From Lysobacterales bacterium (GTDB lineage: Bacteria; Pseudomonadota; Gammaproteobacteria; Xanthomonadales; Rhodanobacteraceae), in contig JAATFF010000081.1 in NCBI GenBank assembly GCA_015655335.1, positions 1 to 64,000 of the forward strand: a stretch of 64,000 nucleotides of DNA, in the 5' to 3' direction. Shown piece by piece: positions 21,654 through 50,818 of this stretch. Numbering within the stretch: position 1 is the stretch's first letter; every line of letters begins with the position of its first letter. Under the pieces are notes generated by a model that did no database searches, was not told the DNA's origin, and saw nothing but the letters and a program-made list of their open reading frames with translations. The position numbers and the translations under genes are program-made.

Positions 21654-21830
21654 GAGCCTGTTCAAAGCCTCCGCGTGGCCCGCGCCGGGATCTGTTTGCG
21701 CGCAGGGCAAGGAAGAACGAGCGAAGTGTATGTCGATACATGAGCGAGAGATGACGCGGCCATGCGGGTAAACAGACCCGGCCCTTCGGGTTGCGCCTGA
21801 GCGGGCTACGCGGGAACTTTGAACAGGCTC
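21654..21830. repeat. structured dispersed repeat, copy 1 (177 bp)
   Basis: A 14-bp perfect outer stem (21654-21667 with 21817-21830) continues as CCGCGTGGCCC (from 21671) opposite GGGCTACGCGG (to about 21813), with one G/T mismatch. Inside, GGGATCTGTTTGC can pair with the GTAAACAGACCC segment, and TGTAT-GTCG-ATACA makes a small central hairpin. It shares this layout and long identical stretches with the element at 44522-44787. It occupies most of the 281-bp gap between the divergent lipoprotein gene and parC, so parC's promoter must lie in or beside it. Coding potential: none. Confidence 0.75.
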
Positions 21831-44521: not shown

Positions 44522-44787
44522 GAGCCTGTTTACGATGTCTGCGTGGCCCGCGCCGGGATCTGTTTGCTTGCCGGGCAAGGAGGAATGAAGGCGTGTATGT
44601 CAATACACAACTGAGTGAAGACGCCGTCCGGCGGGCAAACAGACCCAGCCCGAAGGGTTGTCGCTGTGCGGCCGTCATGCGGCAGCGCGCGGCTTGGCCT
44701 GACAGCCAGTCAGGCGCTGCATCACGCACTACCACCTGCCGACCGCACAGCGACAACGCGGGCTACGCAGACATCGTAAACAGGCTC
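44522..44787. repeat. structured dispersed repeat, copy 2 (266 bp)
   Basis: Outer arms 44522-44552 and 44757-44787 pair over 31 nt with a single G/T mismatch. Compared with the element at 21654, the first nine bases and the GCGTGGCCCGCG part are the same, but the middle of the stem differs on both strands and still pairs. Shared inner parts include the GGGATCTGTTTGC box, its AAACAGACC partner, and a GTGTAT-GTCA-ATACAC hairpin (44593-44608). An extra module has a perfect 15-bp stem (44657-44671 with 44743-44757). It separates uppS from cdsA and ends 12 nt before the cdsA ATG. Confidence 0.78.
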
Positions 44788-44799
44788 TAAGGAACGCCC

Positions 44800-45645
44800 A
44801 TGTTGCGCCAGCGCGTCCTCACCGCCCTTCTACTCGCCCCGCTTGTCATCCTGCTCATCCTGCTGTTGCCGACGAGCATCTTTGCGTTGCTGCTGGCGGT
44901 AGCATTCCTGGCGGCGACCTGGGAATGGACGCGACTGGCAGGCATGAAGGTCCGCGCCAATCGCGGCATGCTGGTCGCATTCGCTGCCATCGTTTTCTTG
45001 GTGCTGTGGCTGCTGCGTGCATCCGCGTGGCTATGGCCTGCGATGATTACCGCGGGCGTGGCCTGGTGGCTGCTGGTATGCGTTTGGCTTCGCCATTTTG
45101 CGTTCGGCGCCGCCCCCACCCCGGAAAATCGCAACCTGAAACTGCTGGCCGGTGTTTTCGTCGTGTTTCCAGCCTGGGTCGCGGGTGTGAACATCCATGG
45201 CAGCGACCCTCAAGTACTTATTTGGACATTCCCAGCCGGTCATTTCTGGGCATTTTTGGCGATGCTGCTGGTCTGGGCCGCCGATACCGGTGCCTATTTC
45301 GCGGGCCGATTCTTCGGCAAGCGCAAGCTCGCGCCGCAAATTAGTCCTGGCAAGACCTGGGCGGGCGTCTACGGGGCGTTCGTCACCAGCGCGCTGGTCG
45401 TGGTTGTCGGCGGCTGGTTGCTCGGCGTGCGCGACGTGCGGCTGATGGGGCTCATCGTCGTCGCCATCGTGACCGTGGCCAGCTCCATCGTGGGCGATCT
45501 GCTGGAAAGCCTGATGAAGCGCCATGCGAACGTCAAAGATTCCGGCGCCTTGTTCCCCGGTCATGGCGGCCTGCTGGATCGCCTCGACAGCGTATTTGCG
45601 GCGCTACCGGTGTTCGCTCTAGGCAAACTGCTGCTCGGCCTTTGA
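44800..45645 (+). CDS. cdsA: phosphatidate cytidylyltransferase (CDP-diglyceride synthase)
   Basis: 281 aa, about eight membrane helices, with the family signature near the C-terminus: SIVGDLLESLMKRHANVKD followed by PGHGGLLDRLDS. It makes CDP-diacylglycerol for phospholipids. The ribosome site TAAGGAACG lies directly against the end of the structured repeat, so its translation could be influenced by that RNA fold. Confidence 0.96.
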   Translation: MLRQRVLTALLLAPLVILLILLLPTSIFALLLAVAFLAATWEWTRLAGMKVRANRGMLVAFAAIVFLVLWLLRASAWLWPAMITAGVAWWLLVCVWLRHFAFGAAPTPENRNLKLLAGVFVVFPAWVAGVNIHGSDPQVLIWTFPAGHFWAFLAMLLVWAADTGAYFAGRFFGKRKLAPQISPGKTWAGVYGAFVTSALVVVVGGWLLGVRDVRLMGLIVVAIVTVASSIVGDLLESLMKRHANVKDSGALFPGHGGLLDRLDSVFAALPVFALGKLLLGL

Positions 45646-45655
45646 GAAGGCGAGC

Positions 45656-46793
45656 ATGACTCGCAATGTCGCCGTCTTAGGGGCTACGGGTTCGATTGGA
45701 ACGAACACTCTCGACGTCATCAGCTGCCATCCGGACCGTTTTCGCGCCAGCGTGCTGGCTGCCCGCCACAACGTCGAAGCACTGACGGAACTCTGCGCTC
45801 GTCATCGACCAGATCTGGTCATCATTGCGGACACGGCGCTGGAAGCCGAACTGGCACGTCGCTTGGCGGCTCATGGCGTGCGCTGCGACGTTGCCAGCGG
45901 CCACGACGCCATAACCCGCGCGGCAGCATCAGGGTTGTGCGATACCGTCATGGCTGCGATGGCGGGCGCCGCTGGACTGGACTCCACCCTGGCCGCCGCC
46001 CGTGCCGGCAAACGGCTGCTGCTGGCCAACAAGGAGTCGCTCGTGATGGCCGGCCCGCTGTTGTTGCAGGCACTGGCTACAGGTCATGGCGAGCTGATCC
46101 CAGTGGCCCCCGAACACAACGCGATCTTCCGGTGCCTACTTGGCGACCGCCCCAATCTGAACCAGAGCGGGGTGAGGCGGTTGACCCTCACCGCATCGGG
46201 CGGCCCCTTTCACGGCTGCCGGCGTGCCGAACGGGGCGATGGGCCGCAGAACGTCGGTCGACACTGCCACCCTGATGAATACGGGTCTGCAAGTGATCGA
46301 AGCCCATCACCTGTTTAAGGCTCACCCAGGCCAAATCGATGTACTGATGCATCCCCAGCCACTGGCGCACTCGCTGCTGGAATATGTCGACGGCTCGATG
46401 CTGGCCCAGCTTGGCAACCCAGATATGCGCACCGCCATTTCTTGCGCAATGGCGTGGCCCGACCGCTTCGAGGCGCCCGCGAGCGCGCTGGATCTCGCCA
46501 GCCATCCGCCGCGGGCCTTCGAAAACCCCGACTTCGATACCTTCCGCTGCCTGGCCCTCGCTTTTCAGGCACTGCGGGCGGGGGGCGACGCGCCGGCCAT
46601 CCTGAATGCGGCCAACGAGATCGCCGTGGAGGCGTTCCTGGCCGGGTCCCTGCCCTTCTTGTCCATGGCCGACATCGTCGAGCAGGTTCTCACGGAACTG
46701 CCGGCACAAGCTGTGGTCGATACCCAGACCCTGAGCGAACGCGACCGGACAGCCCGAGAGGCCGCCCGACGGGTACTTCGCAACGCTTGCTGA
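45656..46793 (+). pseudogene. dxr: decayed 1-deoxy-D-xylulose 5-phosphate reductoisomerase
   Basis: The first part (from ATG 45656) keeps the NADPH motif GATGSIGTNTLD and ANKESLV, then leaves the Dxr frame soon after TASGGPF near 46215-46235; homology resumes in another frame at about 46233 (PNGAMGRRTSVDTATLM) and runs to 46793. The stretch between is about 40 nt shorter than in intact Dxr. By comparison with E. coli Dxr, catalytic positions are lost throughout: D150-S151 to A-P (PVAPEHN), His209 in the missing piece, W212 to G, S222 to T, K228 to T, E231 to Q (NTGLQ), and His257 to C (AISC). It cannot be functional, even if the frame were restored. The place, between cdsA and rseP, is the ancestral one. 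Confidence 0.9.
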
Positions 46794-46828
46794 TAAGCTT
46801 TGAGCTTCCCTTGAGACGTACCTGATTG

Positions 46829-48178
46829 ATGAATCCCTTTTTCGGCTCGGTGTTCTGGTTGGCAGTCACGCTCGGCGTGCTGGTGACCTTTCACGAATTC
46901 GGACACTACTGGGTCGCGCGACGTTGCGGCGTGAAAGTGTTGCGCTTCTCGATCGGCTTCGGCCGCGCGATATGGAAGCGCATTGGTCGCGATGGCACCG
47001 AATACCAGATCGCTGCTATTCCGCTGGGCGGCTACGTCAAGATGCTCGATGCGCGCGAAGGCGATGTCGATCCTGCGCTGCTCAGCCAGGAGTTCACCCA
47101 TCAGTCGATCTGGAAGCGCATCGCCATCGTGGCCGCTGGCCCTGGCTTCAATATCATCTTCACCATCGCGGCATTCTGGCTAATGTTCGTTATGGGGCGC
47201 ACCGATTACGCTCCCGTCGTTGCCGCCGCACCGCAAAGCATGGCAGCCGAGGCCGGCATACAGTCGGGAGATCGGTTGCTTAGCGTGGGCGGCACGCCAG
47301 TCACGACCTGGAGCGGTTCGTTCGATGCGATCGCCAACGCTACGCTGAGTCGTACGCCACTCGCCGTGACGGTGCGCGGCGCCAACGGCTCGGAACGTTC
47401 GTTTGTGCTGCCGCTCAATCGGCTTCCGGCGGGAGAGGATGTCGGCCACTACATGGACAAATTGGGTCTGGAGCCTGCTCCAGCCCCTTCGATAGCGGCC
47501 GTTGTGGAGCCGGGCGAGCCGGCCGCGTTGGCGGGGCTACAAGCGGGTGATCGCATCACCAGCATCGACGGCACGCCCACCACGAATTTCAACGACCTCA
47601 GCAAGCAGATCACGACCGCCGCCGCGAAATCGCCGGCGCTGTTGCTGGAAGTGCAGCGCAATGGCAAGTCGATGCACTTTACGGTCAATGCCCGCATGGA
47701 GTCGCAGAACGGTGAACCCGTGCGCTGGATGATCGGCATTGGCCAGCAACCTCCGGAAACGGCTATCCAGCACTATGGGCCGTTCAAGGCACTGGTCGCG
47801 TCGTTCGATCTCACCTGGCAGCGCACCGCCGAAACCTTCGGCATGTTCGGCAAGATGCTCACCGGCGAGGCCTCCACCAGCAACATCTCCGGTGTGATTG
47901 GCATCGCCCAGGTTGCCAACGCCGCGGCCCAAATGGGGTTGGATCGGTTCCTGGAATTCCTCGGATTGGTGTCGCTAAGCCTGGCGATCATCAACCTGCT
48001 CCCGATTCCGATCTTGGACGGCGGGCACCTGCTGTATTACCTTATCGAGCTGGTCAAGGGCAGCCCGGTCAGCGAACGGACCATGATCGCGGGCCAGTAC
48101 GTAGGCATCGCCTTGCTTTGCACGCTGATGGGGTTGGCTTTCTACAACGACATCCATCGCATCATCCTGCCCTCGTGA
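46829..48178 (+). CDS. rseP: site-2 RIP metalloprotease RseP
   Basis: 449 aa. HEFGHYW zinc motif in the first helix, two periplasmic PDZ domains (around AGIQSGDRLLSVGG and AGLQAGDRITSIDG), and NLLPIPILDGGHL in the third helix. It cleaves the anti-sigma-E factor RseA during envelope stress. ATG at 46829; a TTG three bases earlier is less likely. It lies directly before bamA, as expected. Confidence 0.96.
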   Translation: MNPFFGSVFWLAVTLGVLVTFHEFGHYWVARRCGVKVLRFSIGFGRAIWKRIGRDGTEYQIAAIPLGGYVKMLDAREGDVDPALLSQEFTHQSIWKRIAIVAAGPGFNIIFTIAAFWLMFVMGRTDYAPVVAAAPQSMAAEAGIQSGDRLLSVGGTPVTTWSGSFDAIANATLSRTPLAVTVRGANGSERSFVLPLNRLPAGEDVGHYMDKLGLEPAPAPSIAAVVEPGEPAALAGLQAGDRITSIDGTPTTNFNDLSKQITTAAAKSPALLLEVQRNGKSMHFTVNARMESQNGEPVRWMIGIGQQPPETAIQHYGPFKALVASFDLTWQRTAETFGMFGKMLTGEASTSNISGVIGIAQVANAAAQMGLDRFLEFLGLVSLSLAIINLLPIPILDGGHLLYYLIELVKGSPVSERTMIAGQYVGIALLCTLMGLAFYNDIHRIILPS

Positions 48179-48400: not shown

Positions 48401-50818
48401 ATGAAGCGTATCGCCGCCCTGATCCTGCTTGCCTCCCTTTCTACGAGTGTGTTTGCACTCGAGCCATTCGTCGTTTCCGATATCCGCATCGAGGGGCTTA
48501 GCCGCATCTCGGCCGGTACCGTATTCAACTACCTGTCGATCAACAAAGGCGACCGCCTCACCAACGAAGAAGCTCAACAAGCCATTCGCGCCTTGTACAA
48601 CACCAAGTTCTTCAGCGATGTGGAACTGGAGCGCGACGGCGACATCCTGGTGATCAAAGTGGTGGAGCGTCCCTCTATCGCCAAGCTCACCATCCGCGGC
48701 AACAGCGACATCAAGACCGACGATCTCAAGAAAGGCCTGAAGGAAATCGGCCTGACCGAGGGCGAGACCTTCGACCGTCTCGCGATCGATCGCGTGCAGC
48801 AAGAGCTGATCCGCCAGTATTACAACCGCGGCAAGTACAACGTGTCGGTCATCCCGCACGTGATCGAGCTTGATCGCAATCGCGTGTCCATCGACATCGA
48901 AATCCGCGAAGGCAAGGTGGCCAAGCTCAAGGAAGTGAACATCGTCGGCAATACGGCGTTCAGCGACAAGGAAATCGAGAAGGGTTTCGAATCCGGCACC
49001 ACCAATTGGCTGTCGTGGTACTCGAAGAACGATCAGTATTCGCAAGACAAGCTTTCGGGCGATCTGAAGAAGCTGCAGTCGTATTACATGAACCGCGGCT
49101 ACGCCGACTTCGGCCTGGATTCCTCGCAGGTGACCATCTCGCCGGACAAACGCGCGATGTACATCACCGCCGATGTTGTCCAGGGCGACATCTACCGCAT
49201 TTCCGATACGCACCTTCTCGGTCAGTTGATCCTGCCGGAAGAGACGCTGCGCAAGCTGGTATTCGTGAAGAACGGCGACCTCTTCAATCGTGCCGCGATT
49301 GAAGCAACCTCCGATTCCATCAAGGCGTTGCTGGCCAACATCGGCTACGCCTTCGCGAAAGTGAATTCCGTACCCAAGCTGGATAGAGACAAACACACCG
49401 CCGACATCACCTGGTACATCCAGCCGGGTCCGCGCGTCTATGTTCGCCGCGTGATCTTCCAGGGCAACACCCGTACCGAAGACGACGTGCTGCGCCGCGA
49501 CATGCGCCAGTTGGAAGGCGCCTGGTACTCGCAGGCGGCGATCGATCGTTCGAAGATTCGCCTGCAACAGCTTGGCTTCTTCAAAACCGTGACCATCGAC
49601 AAGCAGGTGGTACCAGGCAGCGACGATGAGGTCGATCTGACCGTGAAGGTGGAAGAGCAGTCCGCCGGCAGCCTGACCTTCGGTGTGGGCTATTCGCAGT
49701 ATTCGGGCATCATCCTGTCCAGCTCGGTATCGGAGAACAACTTTCTCGGCACCGGCGACCGCTTCAGCATCGGCGCCGAGCGCAGCGATTACCTCACGCA
49801 GATCAACGCCTGCTTCTCCAACCCGTACCTGACTGATAACGGCATCGGTATCGGTTACAACGCCACGTTCTCGCGCGCCGACTACAGCGACCTGGGCAGC
49901 CAGTACGCCAGTTATTCGAACAGCACCAAGTCGTTCTCCACCACGCTGGGTATCCCGGTGACCGACTTCGATCGCCTCAGCGGCAGCCTCGGTATCGGCA
50001 GCACCAAGATCAATACCTATGCAGGCTATACGCCGCAGCCCCTGATCGACTACATCAACGCACTGGGTCACGAGACCATCCACACCTGGACGGGTTCGCT
50101 CAGTTGGGTTCACGACACGCGCAACTCCTACTAGGCACCGACGCATGGCGGCCAGCTCACGGCCACAGTCAGTGCTGCGCTGCCAGGTTCCACAGTGCAA
50201 TACTGGACTTTCAACGGCGAAGCGAACCACTACTGGCCGATCGGTAAGGGCTTCGTGTTGTATGTCGACGGCAAGGTTGGCTACGGCAACACGTACGGTG
50301 GCAAAACTTACGAAAACAGCACGCAAGATGGTGTTATCCAAGCCGGCCAGTCGGTAGCCTTCCCGTTCTGGATGAACTTCTACGCCGGTGGCGTGACCGA
50401 TCTGCGTGGCTTCCAGGACAACACCTTGGGCCCGCGTGTCTGCGCAGGCACGCTGGCGGACGGAAAACCCATCCCGGCGCAGGCAAATGGTTACTGTGGC
50501 AACGGCAGCCCCTATTCCTACGCGCAGCCTATCGGTGGTGCGTTCAAGGTGCTGGGTACGACCGAACTTTACCTGCCGCTGCCGTTCCTGAAGGACATCA
50601 ACACGGCGCGCGTCTCCGTGTTCATGGACGTCGGCCAGGCTTACACCAACATCCAGAACTTCAGCGCCAAACAGCTCGATGCCTCTGCCGGTGTCTCGCT
50701 GCATTGGCAGGCGCCGATTGGCCCGCTGATCATCAGCCTTGGTTTCCCGTTCCGTACGCAGCCTGGCGACAGCGAATACGAAGAGCGCATTCAGTTCACC
50801 TTCGGCAGCCAGTTCTAA
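48401..50818 (+). CDS. bamA: outer membrane protein assembly factor BamA, interrupted by an in-frame TAG at codon 578
   Basis: The full frame is 806 codons from ATG 48401 (GGAA 7 nt upstream). It has a signal peptide (ending VFA-LEP), five POTRA domains (from VSDIRIEGLSRISAG), then an Omp85 barrel from about residue 430 (GVGYSQYSGIILSSSVSENNFLGTG). TAG at 50132-50134 follows HDTRNSY. The same frame continues without a break, APTHGG-LTATVSAALPGS, through GGVTDLRGFQDNTLGP to the C-terminal strand IQFTFGSQF, a proper Bam recognition ending in Phe. BamA is essential, so the stop is either an error in the sequence, is read through, or is covered by another copy. Without readthrough the protein lacks most of the barrel. 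Confidence 0.93.

Follow-up and report, generated by a model that had tools for sequence, protein, structure and literature searches.

In a genus of soil bacteria related to Dyella, gene content indicates that the MEP pathway has been replaced by the mevalonate pathway, and we are fairly confident that the best explanation for the state of dxr in these genomes is that the gene would have lost catalysis after this swap while its 3′ end was kept as a promoter/leader of rseP-bamA. An order of swap, erosion and loss is what the comparison of related genomes suggests, and the dxr gene studied here, broken and with a changed active site, would be one stage of it.

Genomes and locus

The window, i.e. 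the whole stretch of 64,000 nt that was analysed, lies in contig 64 of G000, a draft genome of 3.50 Mb in 169 contigs with a completeness of 86%. G000 was searched together with 40 other genomes, of which 15 belong to its genus, 9 to other genera of the family and 16 to the order; the counts for the genus (n = 16) include G000 itself. The dxr of G001 was used as the reference for that of the window, being the closest dxr in the set (lowest pN). The locus of Dyella acidisoli NBRC 111980 is identical to the G004 locus over 3414 nt, which places this species within the genus, and it has no dxr; among the matches listed, D. silvatica and D. kyungheensis, whose RseP proteins share 69% and 66% identity with that of the window, have the dxr 3′ end before rseP in the stretch viewed. 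Thus, the name Dyella alone is no guide to the state of dxr.

In the window, cdsA, dxr and rseP-bamA follow in this order on one strand; cdsA, rseP and bamA were named from sequence and operon place.

44800..45645, + strand: cdsA, upstream neighbour of dxr, an open ORF
45656..46225, + strand: N-terminal part of dxr, which retains the NADPH motif and has the metal-site changes D150A and S151P; PF02670 144.3 bits and TIGR00243 174.7 bits on this piece
46225..46226, + strand: junction of a 41-nt deletion, from the alignment with G001; the deletion causes the frameshift and takes out the loop that contains H209
46224..46793, + strand: C-terminal part of dxr, with W212G, S222T, K228T and E231Q, C-terminal domain conserved; PF13288 123.7 bits
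46829..48178, + strand: rseP, downstream neighbour of dxr, an open ORF, from the ORF and the genus alignment
48401..50818, + strand: bamA, with an in-frame TAG at 50132-50134, where G001 has TGG

Between uppS and cdsA lies a MITE-like element of about 266 nt (44522-44787), which has terminal inverted repeats of 31 nt (97%) and further inverted repeats inside, and a 151-nt stretch at 21654-21804 is 76% identical to it.

The dxr gene of the window

Homology to Dxr is divided between two reading frames, the first covering 45656 to about 46225 and the second 46224/46226 to 46793. The whole Dxr fold is still homologous, with PF02670, PF08436 and PF13288 distributed across the two pieces; TIGR00243 gave 174.7 and 195.3 bits on them, each below the whole-protein cut-off of 315.7, and each piece is matched by 29 distinct PDB sequences. 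A preliminary description of this DNA had placed a frame break near 46215-46235, with about 40 nt missing, and had stated that the NADPH motif and the fold remain. The alignment with G001 locates the break precisely, as the deletion of 41 nt at 46225/46226, and the NADPH motif, the C-terminal domain and full-length homology are all present.

For the active site, we adopt E. coli numbering and residue roles (metal ligands, substrate/loop). Six of the 14 checked positions are kept (K125, E152, S186, M214, N227 and H257), and the replacements are D150A, S151P, W212G, S222T, K228T, E231Q and C for the H of IAH; H209 was lost in the 41-nt deletion, the V at its place in the residue table being the junction codon. 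An active DXR type I should have the metal ligands D150, E152 and E231, which read A, E and Q here, the residues S186, H209, W212, S222, N227, K228 and H257, which read S, lost, G, T, N, T and H, and an intact reading frame, which the deletion breaks in this draft assembly. The Dxr protein of the window is presumably inactive. In the outgroups (n = 8), 13-14 of the 14 positions are kept. With eight of 14 positions changed or lost, including H209, the active-site losses described earlier are confirmed, with two qualifications for the change of PIAH to AISC: its P-to-A part occurs commonly within the family, all 8 outgroups having TAI or TAL there, and one of these eight has Y in place of the H of IAH.

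The broken frame could also be an artefact of assembly or sequencing, in which case the dxr of the window would be an eroded open frame like those of its relatives. The fragmented and incomplete state of the draft (86% in 169 contigs) speaks for such an artefact, as does the nearby bamA gene. The gene bamA is essential in the Gram-negatives that have been studied, so its nonsense codon in the same draft is likely a sequence error, the alternative being the striking disruption of an essential gene; one wrong base or more is thus probable in G000, whether or not the dxr deletion is real. Against this reading, a deletion of 41 nt is not typical of base-call error. Moreover, when 71 ORFs of G001 were compared with the window, 54 matched. 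A stop or a divided frame was indicated for 11, and inspection put nine of these down to the choice of start codon, to antisense frames or to frames of doubtful reality. We regard only dxr and bamA as real breaks, and the idea that broken genes are greatly over-represented in the draft was rejected. We therefore regard an artefact as possible, though doubtful. The substitutions sit outside the question of the 41-nt deletion, and the conclusions drawn from them are independent of its being real.

Replacement of the MEP pathway

HMG-CoA reductase (HMGR) was found in all 16 genomes of the genus, in none of the nine family relatives and in 4/16 genomes of the order (one of them weak). Both ispG and ispF are distributed in the opposite way, with 0/16 in the genus, 9/9 in the family and 13/16 in the order, and dxr (PF02670) is intermediate in the genus (7/16, against 9/9 in the family and 12/16 in the order). 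HMGR is present in each of the three order genomes from which dxr, ispG and ispF are missing. The gene ispH, searched for in the genus only, gave one match in 16 genomes. This sole match (G009:C222:2865-3710) lies in a draft of 250 contigs with 4% contamination and is perhaps contamination itself. A swap of pathways in the genus is evident from this gene content, as the preliminary description had supposed in stating that the MEP route was abandoned.

That description had also required another route to IPP, naming the mevalonate pathway among the options, and the search of the genome itself found one. A cluster on contig 108 of G000 encodes an HMGR-mevalonate kinase fusion, a GHMP kinase, a diphosphomevalonate decarboxylase (MVD) and a type I IPP isomerase (IDI). 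It adjoins the hopanoid genes hpnH and hpnJ, and an HMG-CoA synthase lies outside it.

L086 5765-8080 (G000 contig 108): HMGR-mevalonate kinase fusion, a single ORF of about 770 aa; TIGR00532 422.3 bits and TIGR00549 236.5 bits, both above cut-off
L199 1375-3063 (G000 contig 130): HMG-CoA synthase, divergent; PF01154 60.5 bits and PF08540 30.3 bits, above the Pfam cut-offs; NCBIfam 157 of 360 bits, below the cut-off

MVD (TIGR01240, 292 bits) and IDI (TIGR02150, 150.8 bits) both exceed their cut-offs. The GHMP kinase, with 90.9 bits for TIGR01220 (cut-off 165.7), is probably the phosphomevalonate kinase. TIGR00532, the best HMGR model for the fusion, bears the NCBIfam label 'degradative'. The closest PDB match of the HMG-CoA synthase is 5hwp, and its family was matched in 13/16 genomes of the genus, ten of them above the cut-off. 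The HMGR frames are 761-796 aa in the other 15 genomes of the genus and are long too in G033, G028 and G039, which are dxr-less genomes of the order, the kinase part having been profiled in G000 only. With HMG-CoA synthase, the fusion, a phosphomevalonate kinase-like protein, MVD and IDI present, IPP is most likely made via mevalonate in G000. As to the other routes that had been suggested, the search for a second dxr gave one dxr match only in G000. A DXR type II/DRL protein (PF21135) would be an alternative second step of the MEP pathway; its domain was matched in 0/16 genomes of the genus, and no control genome matched either.

States of dxr across the genus

The same seven of 16 genomes carry dxr by PF02670 and by PF13288, and nine have no match. 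Six of the seven frames are open over 384-392 codons, and erosion of the active site is apparent from the number of catalytic residues kept out of 14, which is 12 in G001, 6 in G000, 3 in G008 and G011, 2 in G010, 1 in G012 and 0 in G007. In the five genomes other than G000 and G001 the frames are open over 384-391 codons, and the replacements differ from genome to genome. The NADPH motif GATG(S/A)(V/I)G is found in 6/7 genes, with DATGAIG in G010. Neofunctionalisation, with a new active site shared in the genus, was considered as a leading idea and rejected, since the residues at D150/S151/E152 and N227/K228/E231 vary by lineage. Some DXRs of the genus may still act: that of G001 keeps its 12 residues and shows normal constraint in the codon model, though ispG, ispF and ispH were not found in that genome.

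On a tree of two proteins, RseP and the HMGR fusion, in which G003, G005 and G006 are placed weakly, the dxr-less G015 is sister to the dxr-bearing G010 (support 0.986), and a second dxr-less clade of G004, G014, G002 and G013 (0.990) stands elsewhere. G009, in which rseP was not matched, groups with G011 (0.919). At least two independent losses of dxr are thus well supported, and more are likely.

Selection on the Dxr protein

Pairwise dN/dS is 0.18-0.49 among the seven genes of the genus (21 pairs) versus 0.14-0.36 in the eight outgroups (28 pairs). In codon ML models, omega at aa 147-300 is 0.35 in the five eroded tips versus 0.10 on the other branches (outgroups, inner genus branches, G000 and G001), compared with 0.09 versus 0.16 at aa 27-86 and 0.08 versus 0.09 at aa 301-350; the branches are long and near saturation, which makes these omegas rough, and the contrast between regions is large. 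Forcing a single relaxed fraction on all regions gave a worse fit (with 4 df, 2dlnL 145 on one tree and 134 on another; 171 in a wider version, 15 df), and uniform relaxation since the pathway loss was rejected on these values, the relaxed fraction having fallen to about zero in the null fits. A codon model with a separate rate per partition was replaced by these later models, as its rates and omegas traded off along the saturated branches. By these estimates, the dxr regions outside the core are under purifying selection in the five other genomes of the genus. It had been proposed earlier that selection on the catalytic core relaxed first and that the whole gene is now decaying. The first proposal is supported, and omega is raised in the eroded tips at aa 147-300 and not at aa 27-86 or 301-350; the second finds no support in this simple form, in view of the five open frames, the purifying selection outside the core and the rejection of uniform relaxation.

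If dxr were a plain pseudogene, protein-level selection would have ceased with the swap and the open frames would be recent losses that have yet to meet a stop. The idiosyncratic changes of the active site, which share no pattern, the repeated loss of dxr and the broken copy in the window are what such a pseudogene would give, and some frames do stay open in a G+C-rich neutral simulation with substitutions only (77/200 at 0.1, 24/200 at 0.3 and 12/200 at 0.5 substitutions per site). The last of these fractions makes six open frames out of seven unlikely under long neutrality, though G001 among the six is hardly eroded. The rejection of a single relaxation fraction, and the omegas at aa 27-86 and 301-350 that do not exceed those of the other branches, also count against a plain pseudogene, and we consider it rather unlikely.

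The constraint outside the core may reflect a non-catalytic role, folding safety (avoidance of a misfolding product) or protection from polarity. For the first of these, the NADPH-binding or scaffold shape would have been kept for a non-catalytic job, for example in redox sensing or in partnership with CdsA or RseP. We offer this as a tentative possibility, in agreement with constraint outside the core in five lineages whose active site is ruined and with the NADPH motif in all dxr genes of the genus but that of G010. On the other hand, the absence of a dxr match from nine of 16 genomes means that such a job would be dispensable, and the constraint near aa 292-350 is perhaps partly at the DNA level (pS 0.49-0.51 versus 0.58-0.76 in the preceding windows). 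A fuller account, in which DXR became a pseudoenzyme whose site was discarded independently in several lineages, and whose NADPH and helical C-terminal domains were selected until deletion left only the promoter at the 3′ end, is doubtful on present evidence.

As to polarity, the frame would have been kept open in order that translation shields the transcript and rseP-bamA are not cut off by Rho, and not for the sake of the protein. The gene order, with dxr flanked by cdsA and rseP-bamA in the same orientation, and the open frames with a drifting core are in keeping with this. However, it predicts equal residue drift in all regions, which was rejected, and promoters downstream, if real, would relieve polarity. 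It fits least well of the three reasons for constraint, and we judge it unlikely.

Conserved DNA elements at the 3′ end of dxr

The reading of dxr as a fossil had overlooked a constraint at the DNA level, at the 3′ end of the gene, which survives where the rest of the gene is gone. Two elements are conspicuous there.

46694..46722, + strand: sigma-E-like box GGAACT-N16-GTCGA (46694-46720) plus TA, a candidate rseP promoter inside the dxr 3′ end, conserved across the genus
46771..46799, + strand: second element GGGTACTTCGCAACGCTTGCTGATAAGCT, which spans the dxr stop codon and contains TGATAAGCT (46791-46799)

The sigma-E-like box is present in 15/15 readable genomes of the genus, eight of them dxr-less, and in 7/9 dxr-bearing family relatives, where it begins 100-103 nt before the dxr end (it is absent in G019 and G023). 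It is therefore older than the loss of dxr and outlasts the gene. TGATAAGCT, which reads like an extended -10, occurs in 15/15 genomes of the genus and lies over the dxr stop in 4/9 family relatives; the second element is fully conserved in the genus only. The leader between TGATAAGCT and rseP (46800-46828, mostly GAGTTCC..AGAGACGTACCTG) is also conserved across the genus.

Eight of the nine dxr-less genomes have a readable rseP region. There, a short stretch lacking conservation separates cdsA from GGAACTG, 14 nt and GGTCGA; next, across the site where dxr once stopped, come GGTACTT..., TGATAAGCTT... and the rseP start. Mean pairwise identity among these eight is 100% in GGAACTG, GGTCGA and TGATAAGCT and 96% in GGTACTT, compared with 47% in the spacer, 33% in the 40 nt upstream and 51% in the 40 nt after the box. 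Where dxr is present, pS toward its end is 0.35 and then 0.21 in the genus versus 0.50 and 0.61 in the outgroups, and for the final 42 codons (aa 351-392) the codon model estimates a neutral rate of 0.18 in the genus versus 0.99 in the outgroups (2dlnL 113 for forcing the rate to 1). These comparisons demonstrate, at the level of sequence, constraint on the DNA of about the last 40 dxr codons and retention of the boxes after dxr loss.

In E. coli, rseP-bamA belong to the sigma-E regulon, and the -10 consensus of sigma-E has TC about 16-17 nt beyond the -35. The -35 box of the E. coli sigma-E (RpoE) promoter is given as GGAACTT in a passage of PMC8103513. The box of the window resembles sigma-E promoters in having GGAACT 16 nt before GTCGA (46694-46720, with GGAACTG as the -35-like part) and in its place upstream of rseP-bamA. 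It differs from the E. coli promoter in lying inside the dxr coding sequence, in having G and not T as the seventh base and in lacking genome-wide enrichment, since GGAACTN15-17GTCGA gave 6 hits in G000 versus 8 for the reversed control. In addition, a sigma-70 consensus scan of 46500-46900 gave no promoter and an Rfam search no match, and the identity of the boxes as promoters thus rests on conservation and place. On these grounds we infer that both elements are promoters, the first of them recognised by sigma-E. The dxr 3′ end thus probably survives as the promoter/leader of rseP-bamA.

Proposed course of events

An ancestor of the Dyella-related genus would have gained the mevalonate pathway, and the genes for the later steps of the MEP pathway would have been lost. 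DXR would then have been left without a pathway to serve, and with catalysis no longer needed the core may have drifted separately and differently in each lineage. The gene would finally have been broken, as in the window, or deleted, on at least two well-supported branches. Throughout, the last ~100 nt of dxr would have doubled as promoter and leader of rseP-bamA, with the sigma-E-like box and the element over the stop. In all eight readable dxr-less genomes, the leader and the ~100 nt that precede the dxr stop appear to have escaped deletion, and dxr would not vanish cleanly because this stretch acts as the rseP-bamA promoter/leader.

Relation to known systems and implications

Replacement of the MEP pathway by the mevalonate pathway is known in bacteria; according to passages of PMC13001223 and PMC10663253, one pathway is present and the other lost, varying among related genera. 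The terms Dyella, Rhodanobacter and Xanthomonad- are absent from the main texts of these two papers. In PMC7591250, found for Dyella together with the mevalonate pathway, the passages on mevalonate concern Streptomyces. No report of the present case was recognised in the main texts of the open-licence literature, among the matches listed, and a plasmid search gave no match. With respect to DXR type I (PF02670/PF08436/PF13288, TIGR00243), the dxr of the window is homologous over its full length, with NADPH motif and C-terminal domain kept, and it differs in its metal and substrate residues, its broken frame and the near absence from the genus of ispG, ispF (0/16 each) and ispH (1/16). Pathway replacement and variation within a genus are known already. 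What sets this genus apart from known replacements is the leftover gene at several stages, from 12/14 residues kept to deletion; new are thus a relic dxr at these stages, apparently held by the promoter in its tail, and a possible pseudoenzyme phase.

The genus would show a pathway replacement caught in mid-course, with a near-complete DXR, open frames with wrecked sites, a broken gene and deletions. Moreover, a reason for the lingering of the relic and for the place where it was cut is suggested, as the dxr 3′ end appears to hold signals of the essential rseP-bamA. An annotation of dxr here would be no proof of the MEP pathway. The genus is predicted to be independent of DXR, so that fosmidomycin acting on DXR should not stop growth. 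Finally, these genomes would be natural material for testing whether a discarded enzyme can be retained in a non-catalytic role.
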